Assembly (NCBI RefSeq): GCF_013416775.1
Contig: NZ_SZVI01000003.1
Coordinates: 124,001 to 188,000 of the forward strand
DNA from: Rhodoferax sp. BLA1
GTDB lineage: Bacteria > Pseudomonadota > Gammaproteobacteria > Burkholderiales > Burkholderiaceae_C
Reading direction: 5' to 3'
DNA: 64,000 nt
Position 1 is the stretch's first letter, and each line of letters opens with the position of its first letter. Below the pieces are notes generated by a model. That model ran no database searches. It had not been told where the DNA came from and saw only the letters and a list, made by a program, of their open reading frames with translations. Made by a program: the position numbers and the translations under genes. Positions 46,650-55,708 of the stretch are shown piece by piece.

Positions 46650-48053
46650 ATGCACATTCATATTCTGGGTATTTGCGGCACATTCATGGGCGGCCTGGCC
46701 GCCTTGGCGCGGGAGGCGGGTCACCGGGTTACCGGTTGTGATGCGGGGGTCTACCCCCCCATGAGCGATCAGTTGCGCGCCCTGGGCATCGAGCTCATCG
46801 AAGGTTTTGGCGCAGAACAACTGAGCTTACATCCTGACGTGTTTGTGGTGGGCAATGTGGTCAGCCGCGCCCGCCTGGGCGACGGCACCCCCAAATTCCC
46901 GCTGATGGAAGCCATTCTGGACGCCGGCCTGCCCTACACCAGCGGCCCACAGTGGCTCAGTGAACACATTTTGCAGGGACGCCATGTGGTGGCGATTGCG
47001 GGCACCCACGGCAAAACCACCACCACCGCCATGACCACCTGGATTTTGGAACAGGCGGGCTTGATGCCTGGTTTTCTGGTGGGAGGCGTGCCGCTGAACT
47101 TTGGCGTCTCGGCCCGGCTTGGCCAGGGCAAGGCCTTTGTCATCGAAGCGGACGAGTACGACACCGCGTTTTTTGACAAACGCAGCAAGTTTGTGCACTA
47201 CCGCCCGCGCACCGCAGTGCTCAACAACCTGGAGTTCGACCATGCCGACATCTTTGAGAATCTGGCGGCGATTGAGCGCCAGTTTCACCATTTGGTGCGC
47301 ACCGTCCCGGGCGCAGGTGCCCACGGCAGCGGTCGGGTGGTGGTCAACGGGCTGGAGGAAAGCCTGGCCCGGGTGTTGCACCAGGGCTGCTGGAGCGAGG
47401 TGCGCAGTTTTGGCGCAGCAGTCAGCGACTTTGCCGCTGCCGGCCCCGCGCATGACTTTGATGTGTTGCACCAGGGCCGGGTGGTCGGTCATGTCAGCTG
47501 GGGCCTGACCGGTGTGCACAACCAGCTCAACGCGCTGGCGGCGATCGCAGCGGCCGAGCATTTGGGCGTGGCGCCAGACGCTGCTGCAGCGGCGCTAGGC
47601 AGTTTCGAGAATGTCAAACGGCGTATGGAAGTGCGTGGCACGGTAGCGACAGACGATGGTGGCAAGGTGACGGTATATGACGACTTTGCGCATCACCCGA
47701 CCGCCATTCGCACCACCCTGGATGGTCTGCGCAGCAGGTTGAGCCCTGGGGAACGCATCCTGGCGGTGTTCGAGCCGCGCTCCAACACCATGAAACTCGG
47801 CACCATGAAGGCGCTGCTGCCCTGGAGCCTGGAAAGTGCCGACCTGTCGTTTTGCCACAGCGCCGGGCTCGGCTGGGACGCCGCGGGCGCCCTGGCGCCG
47901 ATGGGTGACAAGGTCCTGGTGAGTGACCAACTCGACGAGCTGGTCAGCGCCGTGACACGTGTCGCCCGCGCCGGAGACCACATCGTGTGCATGAGCAATG
48001 GCGGCTTTGGGGGCGTGCATGCCAAGCTGCTCAAAGCACTACAAGATAAATAG
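46650..48053 (+). CDS. mpl: UDP-N-acetylmuramate:L-alanyl-gamma-D-glutamyl-meso-diaminopimelate ligase
   Basis: Murein recycling ligase that joins recovered tripeptide to UDP-MurNAc. 467 residues. Mur-ligase features: N-terminal HILGICGTFMGGLAALA, ATP loop GTHGKTTTTAMTTWIL, DEYDTAFFDKRSKF (typical of Mpl rather than MurC) and YDDFAHHPTAI. Its TAG stop lies in the head of repeat copy 9. It complements ampD and anmK found in this window. Confidence 0.95.
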   Translation: MHIHILGICGTFMGGLAALAREAGHRVTGCDAGVYPPMSDQLRALGIELIEGFGAEQLSLHPDVFVVGNVVSRARLGDGTPKFPLMEAILDAGLPYTSGPQWLSEHILQGRHVVAIAGTHGKTTTTAMTTWILEQAGLMPGFLVGGVPLNFGVSARLGQGKAFVIEADEYDTAFFDKRSKFVHYRPRTAVLNNLEFDHADIFENLAAIERQFHHLVRTVPGAGAHGSGRVVVNGLEESLARVLHQGCWSEVRSFGAAVSDFAAAGPAHDFDVLHQGRVVGHVSWGLTGVHNQLNALAAIAAAEHLGVAPDAAAAALGSFENVKRRMEVRGTVATDDGGKVTVYDDFAHHPTAIRTTLDGLRSRLSPGERILAVFEPRSNTMKLGTMKALLPWSLESADLSFCHSAGLGWDAAGALAPMGDKVLVSDQLDELVSAVTRVARAGDHIVCMSNGGFGGVHAKLLKALQDK

Positions 48054-48084
48054 CAATATGCCCTTTATAAATAAGGGACAGAGG
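48049..48084 (+). repeat. Dispersed palindromic repeat, copy 9
   Basis: TAGCAATATGCCCTTTATAA and ATAAGGGACAGAGG. The leading TAG is the stop codon of mpl. Confidence 0.8.
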
Positions 48085-48166
48085 CCAAAAATAGCATTGA
48101 TCTTGATGCACCTCGGCATGGCACTCCCGCTGCACCCCAGCTGAATCACCGTGGTTTTTATCGCTG

Positions 48167-48185
48167 GGCGGGTGCCGCACCCGCC
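48167..48185. other. GC-rich hairpin between mpl and aroG
   Basis: GGCGGGTG, loop CCG, CACCCGCC: a perfect 8-bp stem between convergent genes. No T run follows on either strand, so terminator function is uncertain. Confidence 0.45.
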
Positions 48186-48208
48186 ACAGCGCACGACACA
48201 CCGTCAGG

Positions 48209-49351
48209 TCAGCGTGCTCGGCGTTGCAACACCGCTTGTGACAACACTTCCAGCGTTTGCAGGGAATCATCCCAGCCCAGGCAGGCGTCGGTGATGCTCT
48301 GGCCATAAGCCAGTTTGTCGGTCTTGTCCTTGCCAGGGGTAAATTTCTGTGCACCCGCATTCAGGTGGCTTTCCACCATGACACCAAACACCTGCCGGGA
48401 GCCTGAGCTCAACTGCGCGGCGATGTCCCGTGCCACCTCCAGTTGTTTCTCGTGTTGTTTGCTGCTGTTGGCGTGGCTGCAATCCACCATCAGCGTCTGT
48501 GGCAACTTGGACTTGGCCAGCTCGGCACAGGCCTGGGCCACACTGGCAGCGTCGTAGTTGGGCGTCTTGCCACCACGCAGGATCACGTGGCAGTCCTTGT
48601 TGCCCTTGGTCTGGACAATCGCCACCTGACCGTTTTTGTGCACCGACAAAAAGTGGTGGCCACCAGCGGCGGCGTGGATGGCGTCGGTGGCAATCTTGAT
48701 GTTGCCGTCGGTGCCGTTCTTGAAACCAATCGGTGCCGACAGGCCCGAGGCCAGCTCGCGGTGCACCTGGCTCTCGGTGGTACGCGCGCCAATCGCGCCC
48801 CAGGAGATCAGATCGCCCAGGTACTGTGGCGAGATCACATCGAGGAACTCGCTGGCAGCAGGTAGACCCAGGCGGTTGATGTCGATCAGCAGCTGGCGTG
48901 CGATGCGCAGGCCTTCGTCAATGCGGAAACTCTCGTCCAGGTACGGGTCGTTGATCAGGCCCTTCCAGCCCACGGTGGTACGGGGTTTCTCAAAATAGAC
49001 ACGCATCACAATTTCGAGCGAGTCGGCGTATTTGTCGCGCTGCACTTTCAGCTTGCGGGCGTACTCCAGCGCCGCTGCCGGGTCGTGGATGGAACACGGG
49101 CCAATCACCACCAGCAGCCGGTCATCCTTGCCACCCATGATGTGGTGGATGTTGCGCCGGGTGGTGCTGATCATCTTTTCAACCGGTGTGCCATGGATTG
49201 GGAAAAACCGGATCAGGTGTTCTGGGGGGGGTAACACGGTGATGTCCTTGATGCGTTCGTTGTCGGTTTCACCGGTTCTGTCGGTGGTGTTCACGTTCAA
49301 AGAACTGGCCCAGGCATCCTGGTCGGGAGAAACAACGGCTTTGGCATTCAT
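48209..49351 (-). CDS. aroG: 3-deoxy-7-phosphoheptulonate (DAHP) synthase, class I
   Basis: First enzyme of the shikimate pathway, condensing erythrose-4-phosphate with PEP. 380 residues. Family signatures: LVVIGPCSIHDPAAALEYA, MRVYFEKPRTTVGWKGLINDP, SWGAIGARTTESQVHRELASG, GFKNGTDGN, and a metal-site region VDCSHANSSK. It is an AroF/G/H-type enzyme, normally feedback-inhibited by one aromatic amino acid; which one cannot be read off here. The upstream leader encodes a Phe-rich peptide and a terminator, pointing to attenuation control. Confidence 0.95.
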   Translation of the reverse strand: MNAKAVVSPDQDAWASSLNVNTTDRTGETDNERIKDITVLPPPEHLIRFFPIHGTPVEKMISTTRRNIHHIMGGKDDRLLVVIGPCSIHDPAAALEYARKLKVQRDKYADSLEIVMRVYFEKPRTTVGWKGLINDPYLDESFRIDEGLRIARQLLIDINRLGLPAASEFLDVISPQYLGDLISWGAIGARTTESQVHRELASGLSAPIGFKNGTDGNIKIATDAIHAAAGGHHFLSVHKNGQVAIVQTKGNKDCHVILRGGKTPNYDAASVAQACAELAKSKLPQTLMVDCSHANSSKQHEKQLEVARDIAAQLSSGSRQVFGVMVESHLNAGAQKFTPGKDKTDKLAYGQSITDACLGWDDSLQTLEVLSQAVLQRRAR

Positions 49352-49386
49352 GGAAGATTTCCTTGCAAGGTTGACATCAAAAGCAC

Positions 49387-49416
49387 AAAAAAAAACCGCC
49401 GGGAGAACCGGCGGTT
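49387..49416 (-). terminator. Transcription attenuator in the aroG leader
   Basis: On the minus strand: AACCGCCGG, loop TTCTC, CCGGCGGTT, then a T run of nine in total, ending about 35 bases before the aroG ATG. A perfect 9-bp stem with a U tract placed upstream of the gene it would terminate is the layout of an attenuator rather than of an end-of-operon terminator. Confidence 0.85.
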
Positions 49417-49448
49417 GGGAGGAATCAGGACGTTTTATCTGGGTACGT

Positions 49449-49517
49449 TCAGGACTCTCGGCCGCCGAAGGGGCTGGAGAACCAAAAGTAGCTAAAGAAA
49501 AAGGTCACGGATAACAT
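49449..49517 (-). CDS. Phe-rich leader peptide of aroG
   Basis: A 22-residue frame, MLSVTFFFSYFWFSSPFGGR then ES, with six Phe, one Tyr and one Trp, five of the Phe falling in residues 6-13. It stops 33 bases before the attenuator stem. RNA segment UCGGCGG near the end of the frame (49462-49468) can pair with the terminator 5' arm CCGCCGG (49408-49414). GGUUCUC over the Trp12-Phe13 codons (49477-49483) can pair with GAGAGUC at the frame end (49453-49459, with two G-U pairs). These are the alternative structures of a ribosome-mediated attenuator. The ribosome site is weak. Confidence 0.75.
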   Translation of the reverse strand: MLSVTFFFSYFWFSSPFGGRES

Positions 49518-49548
49518 GGTGAAGACTGTAGCACAGTCGCCAGAGGCC

Positions 49549-51009
49549 TCAGGCGGTGCCGCCCACGGTCAGACCGTCGATGCGCAAGGTCGGCTGCCCG
49601 ACACCCACCGGCACACTCTGGCCTTCTTTGCCGCAGGTGCCCACACCGCTGTCGAGCCTCATGTCGTTGCCGATCATGCTGACCCGTTTGAGGCATTCCG
49701 GCCCACTGCCGACCAGGGTGGCGCCCTTGACCGGGTACTGGATCTTGCCGTTTTCCACCCAGTAGGCCTGGCTGGCCGAAAAGACGAACTTGCCCGAGGT
49801 GATGTCCACCTGGCCACCGCCAAAGTTGGTGGCGTACAAGCCCTTTTTGATGCTCGCGACAATTTCCTCAGGCGCTTTGTCACCACCAAGCATGTAGGTA
49901 TTGGTCATGCGCGGCAGCGGCACATGGGCGTAACTCTCGCGACGGCCATTGCCGGTGGGTGCGACACCCATCAGGCGCGCGTTCATCGCGTCCTGGATGT
50001 AGCCTTTGAGGATGCCGTCTTCAATCAGCACATTACACGCACTGGCATTGCCTTCGTCGTCCACATTGAGGCTGCCGCGGCGGTCTGCCAGGGTACCGTC
50101 GTCGAGCACGGTCACACCTTTGGCGGCCACGCGCTGGCCGATCCGGCCGCTGAACGCGCTGGAGCCTTTACGGTTGAAGTCACCTTCCAGGCCATGGCCA
50201 ATCGCCTCATGCAGCAGGATGCCGGGCCAGCCCGGGCCTAGCACCACGGTCATTTCACCTGCCGGCGCCGGGCGCGCTTCCAGATTGGTCAACGCGGCGC
50301 TGACCGCCTCGTCCACGTATTTTTCGATCAAAGCGTCGTCAAAATAGGCAAAACCAAAACGGCCGCCACCACCGGCCGAGCCGACCTCGCGACGGCCTTT
50401 TTGCTCGGCAATCACCGTCACACTCAGGCGCACCAGCGGGCGCACATCGGCGGCCAGGGTGCCGTCGGCACGCGCCAGCAACACCACATCGTGCTCGGCT
50501 GCCAGACCTGCCATGACCTGCGCCACGCGCGGGTCCTTGGCACGGGCGAGCTTCTCCACCTTTTCCAGCAGGGCCACCTTGGCGGCGCTGTCCAGGCTGA
50601 TGATCGGGTCTTGGCCGCCGTACAGTGAACGCGAAGACGCTATTTTTTTGGAAGCTACTCGCGCTTTTCTACCAAGGGCTGCAGCTGAAATCGTGCGTAC
50701 CGTGTTGGCGGCATCCATGAGCGAGGCTTCAGAAATATCGTCCGAGTAGGCAAAGGCAGTTTTTTCGCCACTGACGGCGCGCACACCCACACCCTGATCG
50801 ATGGAGAACGAGCCGGTCTTGACGATGCCTTCTTCCAGGCTCCAGCCCTCGCTGCGGGTGTACTGGAAATACAGGTCGGCTTCGTCGACCTGATGCGCCT
50901 TGATGGCCGCCAGGGCCCGGCTCAAATGGGTTTCATCCAGCCCAAACGGGGTCAACAACAAAGACTTGGCAACGCCCAGGCGTGCAATGGTAGGTTCACG
51001 TGAAATCAT
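49549..51009 (-). CDS. tldD: Metalloprotease TldD
   Basis: Subunit of the TldD/TldE protease that trims peptides such as microcins and CcdA. 486 residues from ATG 51009; 36 upstream codons are discarded. Zinc motif HEAIGHGLEGDF (H267, E268), an N-terminal QGVGVRAVSGEKTAFAYSD domain and C-terminal PVGVGQPTLRIDGLTVGGTA. The partner gene pmbA/tldE is not in the window. The variable segment at about residues 108-120 is encoded by a copy of the dispersed repeat. Same strand as aroG, 198 bp upstream of it. Confidence 0.96.
   Translation of the reverse strand: MISREPTIARLGVAKSLLLTPFGLDETHLSRALAAIKAHQVDEADLYFQYTRSEGWSLEEGIVKTGSFSIDQGVGVRAVSGEKTAFAYSDDISEASLMDAANTVRTISAAALGRKARVASKKIASSRSLYGGQDPIISLDSAAKVALLEKVEKLARAKDPRVAQVMAGLAAEHDVVLLARADGTLAADVRPLVRLSVTVIAEQKGRREVGSAGGGGRFGFAYFDDALIEKYVDEAVSAALTNLEARPAPAGEMTVVLGPGWPGILLHEAIGHGLEGDFNRKGSSAFSGRIGQRVAAKGVTVLDDGTLADRRGSLNVDDEGNASACNVLIEDGILKGYIQDAMNARLMGVAPTGNGRRESYAHVPLPRMTNTYMLGGDKAPEEIVASIKKGLYATNFGGGQVDITSGKFVFSASQAYWVENGKIQYPVKGATLVGSGPECLKRVSMIGNDMRLDSGVGTCGKEGQSVPVGVGQPTLRIDGLTVGGTA
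50650..50685 (+). repeat. Dispersed palindromic repeat, copy 12, inside tldD
   Basis: AGCTACTCGCGCTTTTCTAC and CAAGGGCTGCAG; about 21 of 36 positions match copy 1 without gaps, including AGCT, CTT and AAGGGCT in register. It is read antisense in frame within tldD, giving the AALGRKARVASKK stretch. Confidence 0.55.
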
Positions 51010-51085
51010 GCGGGCGATTCTAGGGCTTGGGGTCATTGGCAGCGGATGGCGCTGCGGCGCAACCCCAAGACCCTTGCGGCATCGC

Positions 51086-52240
51086 TCAGGACTGCACCAG
51101 CCGGTGCGACTTGGCAATCGACATCAAAATGCCCAGCCCCAGCCCAAGCGTCACCATCGCGGTGCCGCCGTAGCTGATGAACGGCAGCGGCACCCCCACC
51201 ACCGGCAAGATGCCACTGACCATGCCCATGTTGACAAAGGCGTAGCAGAAAAAAATCATGGCCATCGCCCCTGCGAGCAGCCGGGTGAATACCGTGGGCG
51301 CCTCCAAGGCAATCGCCAATGCACGCAGCACCAGGAAAATGAACGCGGCAATCAGCAGCAGGTTGCCGACGAGGCCAAACTCTTCGGAGAACGCGGCAAA
51401 GATGAAGTCGGTGGTGCGCTCGGGAATGAACTCCAGGTGGGTCTGCGTGCCTTGCATGAAACCTTTGCCCCACACCCCACCCGAGCCGATGGCGATCATG
51501 CCCTGAATGATGTGAAAACCCTTGCCCAGCGGGTCACGCGTCGGATCCAGCAAGGTGCAGATGCGCTGCTGTTGGTACTCACGCAGCACCACCCAGCGCA
51601 CCCCATCAGCGCACAACTGGGGCTCAAACACCACCAGCAAAGTGATACCAACCAGGCCCAGCAACAAAGGCGGCGCCACCAGCTTCCAGCTCAGCCCGGC
51701 AAAAAAGATCACCGACAAACCCGCCGCCAGCACCAGCAGAGAGGTGCCCAGATCCGGCTGCTTCATGATCAACCCCACTGGCAGCGCCAGCAACAGGCCG
51801 GCCACCAGAAAGTCCAGCGGGCGCAACTGGCCTTCTCTTCGCTGGAACCACCAGGCCAGCATCAAAGGCATGGCGATCTTGAGGATTTCACTGGGCTGGA
51901 TGATCACCCCGATATTGAGCCAGCGTGTGGCGCCTTTTTTGGTGATCCCCATCACGGCCACGGCAAGCAGCAGGGACACCCCCACCACGTAGAGCGGCAC
52001 CGCCAGACTCATCAAACGCTGCGGCGGTATCTGAGCCACCACAAACAAAATGGCACCAGCAATCAGCATGTTTCGCCCGTGATCCATGAAACGGGTGCCG
52101 TGGTCATAACCCGAGGAGTACATGGTGAGCAGCCCTGCGCAGGCCAGCAAGATCACCCCAAAAGCCAACAGACCGTCAAAACCGGCTACCCAGGGGGCCA
52201 AGCGACGCAGCAGCGAGGGACGTTCAAAAGCGAAGGACAT
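51086..52240 (-). CDS. rodA: Rod-shape-determining protein RodA (SEDS glycosyltransferase)
   Basis: 384 residues with about ten membrane helices. SEDS-family motifs: GATRWLNIGVIIQPSEILKIAMP, KQPDLGTSLLVLAAG, DPLGKGFHIIQGMIAIGSGG, FIPERTTDFIFAAFSEEFG and VPLPFISYGGTAMV. Polymerises glycan strands for cell elongation with PBP2. The usual mreBCD-mrdA neighbours are absent on this side. Upstream of tldD by 76 bp on the same strand. Confidence 0.95.
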   Translation of the reverse strand: MSFAFERPSLLRRLAPWVAGFDGLLAFGVILLACAGLLTMYSSGYDHGTRFMDHGRNMLIAGAILFVVAQIPPQRLMSLAVPLYVVGVSLLLAVAVMGITKKGATRWLNIGVIIQPSEILKIAMPLMLAWWFQRREGQLRPLDFLVAGLLLALPVGLIMKQPDLGTSLLVLAAGLSVIFFAGLSWKLVAPPLLLGLVGITLLVVFEPQLCADGVRWVVLREYQQQRICTLLDPTRDPLGKGFHIIQGMIAIGSGGVWGKGFMQGTQTHLEFIPERTTDFIFAAFSEEFGLVGNLLLIAAFIFLVLRALAIALEAPTVFTRLLAGAMAMIFFCYAFVNMGMVSGILPVVGVPLPFISYGGTAMVTLGLGLGILMSIAKSHRLVQS

Positions 52241-52267
52241 GTTGGGATTATCCGGTGCCAGGGCAGC

Positions 52268-52726
52268 TCACGCCGTCATGCGCAGCGGAATCGTGACAGG
52301 CCCGTCGTTCACCAGATGGACCTGCATGTCGGCGCCAAACTCACCAGTCTGCACCACCGGGTGCAAACGGCGTGCCTGCGCCACCACATGCTCAAACCAG
52401 CGCCGGCCCTCATCGGGAGACGCGGCAGCGCTGAATCCTGGCCGGTTGCCGCCCGAGGTGTCGGCGGCCAGCGTGAACTGGCTCACCAGCAACAGGCCCC
52501 CGGCATGCCCCTGACCGTCCATGTCCTGCAGGCTGTGGTTCATCTTGCCAGCGGCATCGCTGAAGATGCGTAACTTGAGGATCTTGGCCAGCATCCGGTC
52601 ACACACGGCGGCGTTTTCGTCGGGCTCGGCGCACAACAGCACCACCAGGCCAGCGTCAATCGCGCCAATCACCTGACCGGCCACTTCAACGCGGGCGGAG
52701 CGCACCCGCTGCAACAACGCGATCAT
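52268..52726 (-). CDS. dtd: D-aminoacyl-tRNA deacylase
   Basis: 152 residues. Removes D-amino acids mischarged on tRNA. Landmarks: N-terminal [15 protein letters not shown], the [20 protein letters not shown] segment, and the Gly-cisPro motif region NDGPVTIPL near the C-terminus. Twenty-seven bases upstream of rodA on the same strand. Confidence 0.94.
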
Positions 52727-52881
52727 GGGCGCCTGACTTTCATCACACGCCTCCCCGCCCGCATGGCGTGGCAGGTGTTGGCAAACGTTTTGGGGGGATC
52801 AGCTGGGGTCTGCATGGGTGAGGCGTGTCGACAAGCTTTGGCAACGAAAGTTCTGTGCGGCAAACGAAACACTACATCTTA

Positions 52882-52917
52882 TATAGCTGCTACCCCTTAT
52901 CCAATAAGGGCTAGAGG
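52882..52917 (+). repeat. Dispersed palindromic repeat, copy 10
   Basis: TAGCTGCTACCCCTTATCCA and ATAAGGGCTAGAGG. Lies in the 224-bp spacer between tyrS and dtd; the remainder of that spacer (52727-52881) shows no gene. Confidence 0.85.
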
Positions 52918-52950
52918 CACAAAAAATTCGCAACACAGCGCCCCAAGCCC

Positions 52951-54195
52951 TTAACCCAGAGTCACCCGTGCGAACTTGCGTTTGCCCACCTGCAGCACAT
53001 AGGTGCCGGCGCCCAGCTTCAGACCCTTGTCGCTGACCACATTGGCGTCGATGCGTACACCACCGCCGTCGATCAAGCGGTTGCCTTCGCCACTCGATGC
53101 GGCCAGCCCGGCCGATTTGAGCAAGGCACCAATGCCCAACGCGGCACCACCCTCACCCAGCGGCAGGCTGATTTCGGGGATCTCATCCGGGATACCACCT
53201 TTGCTGCGGTTGATGAAGTCCTGCTCGGCCGCATCGGCCGCCGCCGCCGAGTGGAAGCGTGCCGTGATTTCCTTGGCCAGCGCCACCTTGGCGTCCTTGG
53301 GGTTGCGCCCGCCAGACACCTCGGCCTTGAGTGCCGCAATCTCGGCCTCGGACTTGAAGCTCAAGAGGGTGTACCAGCGCCACATCAGCACGTCGGAAAT
53401 GCTCAGGCACTTGGCAAACATGGTGTTGGCGTCTTCGGAAATGCCGATGTAGTTGTTCTTGCTCTTGGACATCTTCTCGACGCCGTCCAGGCCTTCGAGC
53501 AGTGGCATGGTCAAAATGCACTGCGGCTCCTGGCCGTACTCGGCCTGCAAGGTGCGCCCCATCAGCAGATTGAACTTCTGGTCGGTACCGCCCAGCTCTA
53601 GGTCACTCTTTAACGCCACGCTGTCATAACCTTGCATCAGCGGGTAGATGAACTCGTGCACGGCAATCGGTGTGCCTGCCTTGAAACGGTCATGGAAGTC
53701 GTTGCGCTCCATCATGCGCGCCACGGTGTAACGGCTGGCCAGCTGGATCAGGCCACGCGCGCCCAGCGGGTCACTCCATTCGCTGTTGTAACGAATTTCG
53801 GTCTTGCTCGGGTCCAGCACCAGCGAGGCCTGGCGGTAATAGGTTTCGGCGTTGACCTTGATCTGCTCTGGGGTGAGTGGTGGTCGCGTGCTGTTGCGCC
53901 CTGACGGGTCGCCAATCATGCTGGTGAAGTCACCAATCAAGAAGATCACCGTGTGGCCCAGGTCCTGCAGCTGGCGCATCTTGTTGAGCACCACGGTGTG
54001 GCCGATGTGGATGTCGGGCGCAGTGGGGTCGAGACCGAGCTTGATACGCAGTGGTGTACCGGTGGTTTGGGAACGCGCCAGCTTCTTGACCCACTCTTCT
54101 TGGGGGATCAATTCTTCACAGCCGCGCAGCGTCACCGCCAGCGCCTCACGGACGTGATCAGAAACGGTAAAGTCAGGGGTTTGGGTAGTAGTCAT
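52951..54195 (-). CDS. tyrS: Tyrosyl-tRNA synthetase
   Basis: 414 residues from ATG 54195 ([19 protein letters not shown]); the long upstream frame is antisense to the M23 peptidase and discarded. Class I motifs HIGH ([10 protein letters not shown]) and KMSKS (EKMSKSKNN), tyrosine pocket [15 protein letters not shown], and a C-terminal S4 RNA-binding domain ([17 protein letters not shown]). Confidence 0.97.
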
Positions 54196-54337
54196 AAGGG
54201 TTTTCCCGCATGCATCCTGCGGGTAGGGGTTTATACTCAGTCGCTGTTTTAAGCGTGATTTTAAATGGGTGTTTTTCGGGGGTTTGAGCAGCTGTTTGTT
54301 GCACGCAATCCACGTACGCCAACAACAGGATGCTCCC

Positions 54338-55708
54338 TTGATCAACTCAGCCCTGAATCGTGGCCAAGCTTTGCTGATGAGCTCTGTCGCCACAGCAGCC
54401 AAATACCCCAAACACCTCACCGCGATTGTCACCGCCACCCTGCTGGCCGGCGGCGGCGGCGCTTGGGCGCTGGCCTCTCTCGGGCCGGATGTGTCCGAAT
54501 TGCCGGTGCAAATGGTGCTGGAGGCCGTGCAACCCCAGTTACCACCTGAGGCGACTGAGCTTGACACACCCGCCTTGAATCTCTACCGCTCGGACCTCAC
54601 GCGCACCACCGACACGGCCGACACCTTGCTTAAACGCATGGGGGTAGATGATCCGCAAGCGGCGCAGTTTTTGCGCACCAACCCGATGGCCCGGCAAGCC
54701 CTGTTCAGCCGCAGTGGCCGCCACGTCAGTATTGAAACGGTGGACACCCACCGGCTTGGCAAACTCAGCGCGCGCTGGAGCCCCGACGAGGGCACCCATT
54801 TCCAGCGCCTGGTGGTGGAGCGTGATGCCAAGGGGTTCAGCGCACGCCTGGAATCTGCTCCTCTGGTGGCCAGCACACGCCTGGCCAGTGGCACCATCCA
54901 ATCCTCTCTGTTTGCGGCCACCGATGAAGCGGGTTTGCCCGATGTGGTAGCCAGCCAATTGGCTGAACTGTTCTCGGGCGACATCGATTTTCGCCGCGCA
55001 TTACGCAAGAACGACCGTTTTAATGTGGTTTACGAGGTGCTTGAAGGTGACGGCGAACGCCTGCGCACGGGAAGAGTTCTGAGCGCCGAGTTTGTCAACG
55101 CGGGCAAAGTGTTCCAGGCCATGTGGTTTCAGCCTCCGGGCAAGGACAGTGCCGGGCAAGCGTATCGGGGCGGCTACTATGCCCTGGACGGCCGCAGCCT
55201 GCGCCGTGCTTTCCTGAGTTCTCCAGTGGCCTTTTCGCGGGTCAGCAGCGGTTTTGCCATGCGTTTTCACCCGATCCTGAACCAGTGGCGCAGGCACCTG
55301 GGCACCGACTTTGCGGCCCCCACCGGCACACCGGCTCGAACCGTGGGTGATGGTGTGGTGAGTTTTGCGGGGGTACAAAACGGTTATGGCAATGTGATCT
55401 TCATCCAGCACCGCAATGCCACGGAGACGGTCTACGCCCACCTGAGCAAAATTCTGGTCAAACGCGGCCAGACAGTGACACAAGGTGACACCATTGGTCT
55501 GGTCGGCTCGACCGGTTGGGCCACTGGTCCCCACCTGCACTTCGAGGTGCGTGTCGCCGGGGTGCAACAAGACCCGATGGCCATGGCGCAAAAGAGCGAG
55601 ACAGTGCCGGTGCCCGTCGCCGCCCTGCCCGTCTTCAAACAGGTCGCCAGCAACGTGAAAACCCAGTTGCAAGCAGCGGCCAGCCTGCAATCTACCCGGT
55701 TTGAGTGA
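54338..55708 (+). CDS. M23-family peptidoglycan endopeptidase
   Basis: 456 residues from TTG 54338, which has AGGA seven bases upstream; other frame-openers lack a ribosome site. A membrane anchor or signal ([18 protein letters not shown]) is followed by OapA/LysM-like middle regions and a C-terminal LytM domain. The zinc ligands are intact: [18 protein letters not shown] and [10 protein letters not shown]. MepM-like, cutting stem-peptide crosslinks during wall growth. Divergent from tyrS and followed by anmK 50 bp downstream. Confidence 0.92.

Follow-up and report, generated by a model that had tools for sequence, protein, structure and literature searches.

A Predicted Phenylalanine-Rich Leader Peptide and Transcription Attenuator Upstream of aroG in Rhodoferax and Related Burkholderiales

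The DAHP synthase gene aroG of Rhodoferax sp. BLA1 is very probably controlled by a ribosome-mediated transcription attenuator. The window, that is, the whole stretch of 64,000 nucleotides that was analyzed, carries on its minus strand the end of tldD, an extended -10-like element, a short open reading frame (ORF), a hairpin, and a DAHP synthase gene, in this order (Table 1). An initial annotation had described most of these parts, and they are present on the minus strand: a frame of 22 codons (49517..49449) with six Phe, one Tyr, and one Trp, followed by a perfect 9-bp hairpin (49416..49394) and a T run, with the first base of the hairpin 33 positions past the last base of the leader stop codon and all of it before aroG. 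The identity of the downstream gene was also borne out. Its product scored 532.7 bits against the NCBIfam profile TIGR00034 aroFGH (cut-off, 173.2), which identifies it as a 3-deoxy-7-phosphoheptulonate synthase, and 547 bits against the AroG-specific model NF006723, which is below the cut-off of 568 for that model. The protein encoded upstream of the leader is TldD, based on a profile match. The aromatic ORF is unique in the window, as it is the only short ORF (12 to 45 codons) with at least seven aromatics in 10 residues. Four short ORFs in the window have at least five aromatics in 10 residues, and a terminator is found behind the leader ORF only. Twenty simulated windows yielded 22 ORFs with at least five aromatics in 10 residues, none with at least seven and none with a terminator.

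Table 1. Parts of the predicted aroG attenuator, with positions in the window
Feature	Position	Strand	Basis or remark
Predicted extended -10 promoter element, TGCTACAGT	49525..49533	-	7 nt 5' of the leader ATG; read from the sequence
Leader peptide ORF, 22 codons, MLSVTFFFSYFWFSSPFGGRES	49449..49517	-	Predicted first element of a leaderless mRNA
Putative sensor codons, FFFSYFWF (five Phe, Tyr, Trp)	49479..49502	-	Sixth Phe downstream; positional conservation in 140 leaders
Region 1, GGUUCUC, pairing partner of GAGAG (pause or anti-antiterminator hairpin)	49477..49483	-	Predicted fold
Region 2, CGGCGG (49467..49462) plus GAGAG (49459..49455), in the 3'-terminal part of the leader ORF	49455..49467	-	Frame-independent retention; co-variation with region 3
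Region 3, AACCGCCGG, terminator 5' arm and partner of region 2	49408..49416	-	Terminator call, fold, co-variation
Region 4, CCGGCGGTT, terminator 3' arm	49394..49402	-	Terminator call, fold, pair counts
U tract of the intrinsic terminator, nine T	49387..49395	-	First two bases are the last two of region 4
aroG, DAHP synthase, presumed regulated gene	48209..49351	-	Start at 49351; NCBIfam profiles

Judging from its conservation, the combination of leader and terminator before aroG is not a chance occurrence. We searched 150 genomes of the same family, including that of the window itself, and found an aroG match in 149. One aroG upstream region per genome was kept for 141 genomes (30 plus 111 loci); the nine genomes left out comprise one without a match and eight with weaker matches only (less than 70% identity or unlisted). 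An aromatic leader with a terminator is present in 140 of these 141 loci, and in the remaining locus (L224) the contig stops too near the gene. The automatic criterion, an ORF with at least five aromatics within 10 residues, recovered 138 of them, and L133 and L220, which reach only four, were added by eye, their leaders being clear on inspection. On the antisense strand of the 141 loci, which served as a control, we found one to four aromatics in 140 and five in one. A terminator was called in all 141 loci; in L175 the automatic call is misplaced, and the real hairpin is present after the leader. At least three Phe residues occur in 139 of the 140 leaders, at least one Tyr in 137, and at least one Trp in 131, and alignment on the Trp codon gives Phe(-1) in 138, Trp(0) in 129, Phe(+1) in 125, and Tyr(-2) in 112. 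The strict core pattern TTYTGGTTCTC-N5..14-GGCGG-N2..3-GAGAG is present in 86 of the 150 genomes, always as a single copy; the same pattern reversed, which served as a control, occurs in no genome. In the genome of the window, the only site with a core-like pattern is the aroG leader. Relatives that keep the hairpin and lose the frame or the aromatic codons had been named in advance as an outcome that would speak against attenuation; this outcome was looked for in the relatives and did not occur.

The comparison of the leaders separates three layers of constraint, namely, translation, an RNA segment, and the pairing between regions 2 and 3. On this comparative evidence, the leader ORF is translated: the ATG that comes first downstream of the promoter motif, chosen blind to the frame, lies 27, 30, 33, 36, or 39 nt from the Trp codon, a multiple of three in all 107 measurable leaders. 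The Phe and Tyr codons at positions -6 to -2 vary synonymously among the 140 leaders. At two neighboring sites, the third-base preference for Phe is opposite, with TTT in 131 and TTC in 7 leaders at Phe(-1) and TTC in 118 and TTT in 7 at Phe(+1). The preference for TTC at Phe(+1) may be explained by UUC-UC being part of region 1, the partner of GAGAG. A rare-codon bias of the leaders was not supported, with a TTT:TTC ratio of 385:241 versus 43:29 in five genes of the window. The second half of the leader (CGGCGG..GAGAG) is kept as RNA. Of the 140 leaders, 134 contain GAGAG or a sequence close to it, and the other six have no recognizable GAGAG. This segment stands in the usual leader frame in 116 of the 134 (with peptides such as VPGGREA and HRTGGGEA) and in another frame in 18 (with peptides such as NAPAVE and VPRRMRG), so that the encoded C terminus changes and the RNA segment remains constant. 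In 13 leaders with peptides ending in GG (L092, L107, L141, L142, L162, L175, L179, L181, L183, L184, L200, L213, and L216), the stop codon TGA follows GGCGG immediately and shares bases with the beginning of GAGAG (GGCGGATGAGAG), and translation termination there thus falls on the antiterminator arm itself.

Both pairings drawn by the initial annotation were confirmed: the terminator 5' arm is a possible partner of UCGGCGG, and GAGAG, in the last codons of the frame, is a possible partner of GGUUCUC. The mean pairing score of region 2 was 20.5 with its own terminator arm and 19.1 with the arms of other genomes (maximum, 19.5 in 200 shuffles). Counts of Watson-Crick pairs between regions 2 and 3 gave 1194 in 183 leaders from within and outside the family, compared to a shuffle average of 1120.0 (highest value, 1148; 1000 shuffles), and 861 in the 132 leaders within the family, compared to a mean of 835.9 and a maximum of 854, in shuffles that do not correct for relatedness among leaders. 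The same kind of test for the terminator pairing between regions 3 and 4 gave 1275 versus a maximum of 1216. The 183 leaders were taken from a set of 192, nine of which were dropped as a region could not be located. The automatic choice of region 2 was wrong in several Oxalobacteraceae, where it took AGCGG downstream of GGCGG, and this weakened the test and did not help it. Compensatory changes, which had been proposed as a check on the stems, were found for the 2:3 pairing, if not in every leader. In eight leaders, CGACG(G) / C(CG)TCG replaces CGGCGG / CCGCCG, and L218 and L226 have the pair AGCGG / CCGCT; in L152 and L206, CCGTCG is opposite an unchanged region 2, which results in a G-U pair with no compensating change. 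In L226 and in the leaders with CGACGG, the terminator 3' arm retains G and forms G-U, indicating that compensation in these leaders is specific to the 2:3 pairing; L218 has a change in its 3' arm as well. The peptides of the eight CGACGG leaders are mostly alike, and one event may underlie all of them. These results are consistent with a mutually exclusive antiterminator built on the terminator 5' arm, supported by co-variation that is uncorrected for relatedness.

Folding was computed for 138 leaders with the ribosome fixed at set codons and its footprint assumed to extend 13 nt from the start of the A site (two of the 140 leaders were dropped, as the region could not be located). In the nascent RNA, where region 4 is still missing, the 2:3 probability exceeded 0.5 in 135 leaders with the ribosome at Trp, in 128 with the ribosome at Phe(-4), and in 131 at Phe(+1). 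With the ribosome at the stop codon, this was the case in only 16. As the 2:3 pairing is high at every tested aromatic codon and low at the stop codon, a stall would give the antiterminator and completion of the leader the terminator. In the model, a ribosome on the sensor codons frees region 2, and a ribosome at the stop codon covers it. In full-length leaders without a ribosome, the probability of pairing between regions 1 and 2 exceeded 0.5 in 127 of 138. The expectation that a ribosome stalled for charged tRNA-Phe favors the antiterminator agrees with the folding of nascent RNA but not with that at equilibrium, where in full-length RNA with the ribosome stalled at Trp the terminator is favored in 125 of 138 leaders. 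This suggests that the antiterminator must win kinetically. When no ribosome is present, 62 of 138 nascent RNAs nevertheless adopt the 2:3 pairing, so that shut-off without translation may not be clean; for the nascent RNA of the window itself, the antiterminator probability was 0.92. The terminator forms in 136 of 138 full-length RNAs without a ribosome. Leader pairing with region 3 exceeded 0.5 in 138 of 139 real leaders (one was dropped, as a region could not be located) and in 331 of 695 shuffled leaders, which indicates that G+C content gives part of the pairing signal.

A generic sigma-70 scan did not give a promoter in the region, and the extended -10 element was found only through comparison of the leaders. 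TGnTAnnnT ends 5 to 10 nt 5' of the leader ATG in 126 of the 140 family leaders (14 lack it at this spacing) versus 3 of the 827 remaining ATGs of these stretches, and a stricter -10 motif has a spacing of 7 nt in 38 of 63 cases. Transcription usually starts 6 to 8 nt past the -10 hexamer, and the spacing found here would therefore place the start site at or next to the leader AUG. Four Shine-Dalgarno 4-mers were sought in positions -16..-4 and were found in none of the 140 leaders. We predict that the leader mRNA is leaderless, both in the window (49517..49533) and for the family leaders. In the Burkholderia and Oxalobacteraceae leaders, -10-like sequences apparently lie further upstream, as judged by eye, and we therefore claim leaderlessness for the family of the window only. 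Passages in PMC7298713 and PMC11857589 describe leader mRNAs that begin at the leader ATG or a single base away from it for the attenuators of Sinorhizobium meliloti trpL and Corynebacterium glutamicum ilvL, respectively. These are alike in their leaderless-type start and differ in their control, which is by Trp and by branched-chain amino acids, respectively.

Based on these data, we propose that transcription would begin at or a few bases from the leader AUG and that the leader would be read from a leaderless mRNA. When charged tRNA is scarce for Phe, probably also for Tyr and, in the family of the window, perhaps for Trp, the ribosome would stall in F-F-F-S-Y-F-W-F. Region 2 (CGGCGG) would then be free and would pair with the emerging region 3 (CCGCCG) before region 4 exists, so that the terminator would be blocked and RNA polymerase would reach aroG. 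With a good supply, the ribosome would reach the stop codon and cover region 2, the 3:4 terminator would form, and aroG would be off. The basis for this in the sequence is the ORF, the terminator, the selection on the frame, the constraint at the RNA level, and the co-variation between regions 2 and 3; from these we infer the promoter, the start site, the stalling, the kinetic trapping of the antiterminator, and the identity of the sensed amino acids.

A peptide of this kind could also act by nascent-chain arrest, in which a motif around YFWFS stalls the ribosome in response to a ligand, such as a free aromatic amino acid, and not to uncharged tRNA. The positions are indeed more uniform than a pure codon counter needs (F(-1) in 138, W(0) in 129, and Y(-2) in 112 of the 140 leaders), but the uniform W-F-S codons overlap RNA region 1, position 0 is other than Trp in 11 of the 140 leaders, and the motif is different in other families, as in MTCFFFTGYFYFSNS, MSAKFYFYFFSDL, and MTRRFFFFFYYF. 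TnaC-like leaders, which work by nascent-chain arrest, halt the ribosome at the stop codon, and the distance of this codon from a key Trp is conserved. In the aroG leaders the stop codon lies 7 to 17 codons past the Trp position, unlike in fixed-stop arrest, and a TnaC-like spacing is not found. Taken together, we regard arrest on a ligand as improbable. We also think it unlikely, if somewhat easier to imagine, that the leader is a leaderless OR gate reading the charging of Phe, Tyr, and Trp jointly, with YFWFS adding a nascent-chain role or a role in trans for the peptide or the terminated small RNA. If this were true, one leader peptide would set the common first step of the pathway from three amino acids.

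Two further explanations do without translation of the leader. The hairpin lies between tldD and aroG and could be a constitutive terminator or insulator behind tldD, next to a chance or inert ORF, and a tldD match, in any order or on any strand, was found in 76 of 110 related full-length loci (26/32, 24/48, and 26/30). However, an insulator for tldD needs no ORF frame, no aromatic codons, no promoter-to-ATG spacing, and no co-variation between regions 2 and 3. Moreover, a candidate promoter is located downstream of tldD and ahead of the hairpin, so that constant termination at the hairpin would silence aroG, and this explanation is very hard to maintain. A translation-independent RNA switch that binds a ligand or a protein would fit the strong conservation of GGUUCUC..CGGCGG..GAGAG as RNA, but the conserved RNA parts are mainly the pairing segments, and the first half of the leader is conserved as a reading frame. 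In addition, there was no Rfam match at the gathering score in 20 related loci or in positions 48000..51000 of the window, and we give such a switch very little credence. A permissive Rfam search of the same positions of the window returned sroD over the element (E value, 0.14; 23.6 bits compared to a gathering score of 50) and a CRISPR repeat outside it (E value, 0.62), both of which we consider chance matches.

The combination of leader and terminator before aroG is not restricted to one family. Among the best 80 of the named aroG loci listed, the automatic criterion gave a leader with a terminator in 63 and none in 16, and one region was too short. Leader-bearing records belong to Polaromonas, Variovorax, Acidovorax, Comamonas, Hydrogenophaga, and Rhizobacter, among others, as well as to Burkholderia, Paraburkholderia, Caballeronia, Massilia, Rugamonas, and Janthinobacterium. 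No leader was found in three Polynucleobacter loci, in two Cupriavidus copies (L037 on chromosome 2 and L039), and in single loci of Thauera, Azoarcus, Rhodocyclus, and Methylotenera; the copy of another Cupriavidus (L074) has a leader. The Polynucleobacter and Cupriavidus AroG relatives without a leader (L034, L035, L036, L037, and L039) have 72 to 75% identity. In Polynucleobacter, the tldD end is still directly upstream, which suggests that the leader may have been lost. At L024, which was counted among the loci without a leader, a terminator accompanies a short ORF that reaches four aromatics in 10 residues, possibly a leader that has weakened. A search across the order covered 120 genomes and gave a match at an E value of 1e-80 in 91, of which 88 are outside the family. 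A leader was present in 19 of 58 upstream regions outside the family (58 from 31 families and 19 in 12 families, with the borderline locus L273 excluded from the 19), and the other 39 aroG loci had no leader by the automatic criterion. The family of the window retains the frame, the aromatic codons, the hairpin, and the 2:3 pairing, and part of the other families of the order retain them in diverged form. Eight of the 19 peptides from outside the family are without Trp and one (L237) is without Tyr, indicating that Phe is the constant residue, that Tyr is nearly so, and that Trp depends on the lineage. This refines the mixed Phe/Tyr/Trp peptide of the initial annotation. On an AroG tree of 82 rows, a quick tree with many open forks, the leader label needs 7 changes compared to 15.6 in shuffles, which suggests that the leader is inherited with some gains or losses. 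Three loci from metagenome bins labelled Planctomycetota or Verrucomicrobia (L048, L050, and L052) have an AroG that is placed among proteobacterial AroG proteins on the tree, possibly the result of binning contamination or transfer.

Among known systems, the enterobacterial pheA (pheL) and pheST leaders combine a Phe-rich peptide with alternative antiterminator and terminator hairpins. The aroG leader resembles them in both respects, but their targets are pheA or the Phe-tRNA synthetase genes and not a DAHP synthase gene; they are mentioned in passages of PMC11802643. The initial annotation held that attenuation of a DAHP synthase gene in a betaproteobacterium is not a textbook case. We found no betaproteobacterial description of the aroG leader element among the literature matches listed, which mostly do not cover subscription literature, so that an earlier mention is possible, and the main text of a survey of premature terminators (PMC2965389) has neither aroG nor DAHP. 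For DAHP synthase genes as such, there is an experimental precedent. The passages of PMC11802643, referring to Neshat et al. 2014, describe for C. glutamicum aroR-aroF a leader with Phe-Tyr-Phe that precedes an operon containing a DAHP synthase gene and ribosome-mediated attenuation that responds to Phe limitation, Tyr being without effect, and this attenuator is also predicted in a passage of PMC4046766. Compared by description only, it is like the aroG leader in having a Phe/Tyr leader peptide, a DAHP synthase gene, and ribosome-mediated attenuation, and it is different in that it belongs to an actinobacterium, has a short aromatic run, and has no Trp in the described motif. A uORF upstream of aroF in Acholeplasma (uORFC-13-1) is likewise a prediction, based on 24 sequences from Acholeplasma and the environment (passage in PMC8632094); it contains one or more Phe codons and, together with a terminator, precedes a DAHP synthase gene. 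The closest precedent is C. glutamicum aroR-aroF; the attenuation mechanism is already known, and the aroG leader is a well-supported new instance of it as far as can be read from sequence. What seems to be new is the predicted leaderless leader mRNA and the diverged versions in other families of the Burkholderiales. In Vibrio, aroA(I-alpha-Y) encodes a Tyr-regulated DAHP synthase. Attenuators are predicted before Vibrio aroA(I-alpha-Y)-tyrA (PMC1173090) and Shewanella aroF (PMC2659441). These are alike in cis-regulatory attenuation before a DAHP synthase gene and differ in being gammaproteobacterial and predictions only, with no leader peptide given in the passages concerned. The TyrR and TrpR regulons described in the passage of PMC5343134 are also gammaproteobacterial.

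The predicted attenuator would provide a concrete and testable mechanism by which Comamonadaceae, and part of the Burkholderiales beyond them, control the first step of aromatic biosynthesis, and for engineers of aromatic products it would be a defined site for relieving control. The natural compensatory changes in the alignment separate the constraint on the antiterminator from that on the terminator and may serve as a test set for attenuation models. It is also a case where a leaderless, non-Shine-Dalgarno start is predicted for an attenuator ORF across a large family. The genome of the window has a second DAHP synthase (L113, 1330..2421), whose upstream region has no aromatic leader by eye, and this paralogue may therefore supply a basal, unattenuated activity. 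The DAHP synthase paralogues L289 and L290 of other family members had no leader by the automatic criterion. On the same strand, within 48209..54567 and upstream of aroG, there are tldD, a rodA-like gene, and dtd-like and tyrS-like ORFs (the last three identified by eye from translations), which would be tyrosine-related genes lying near one another.
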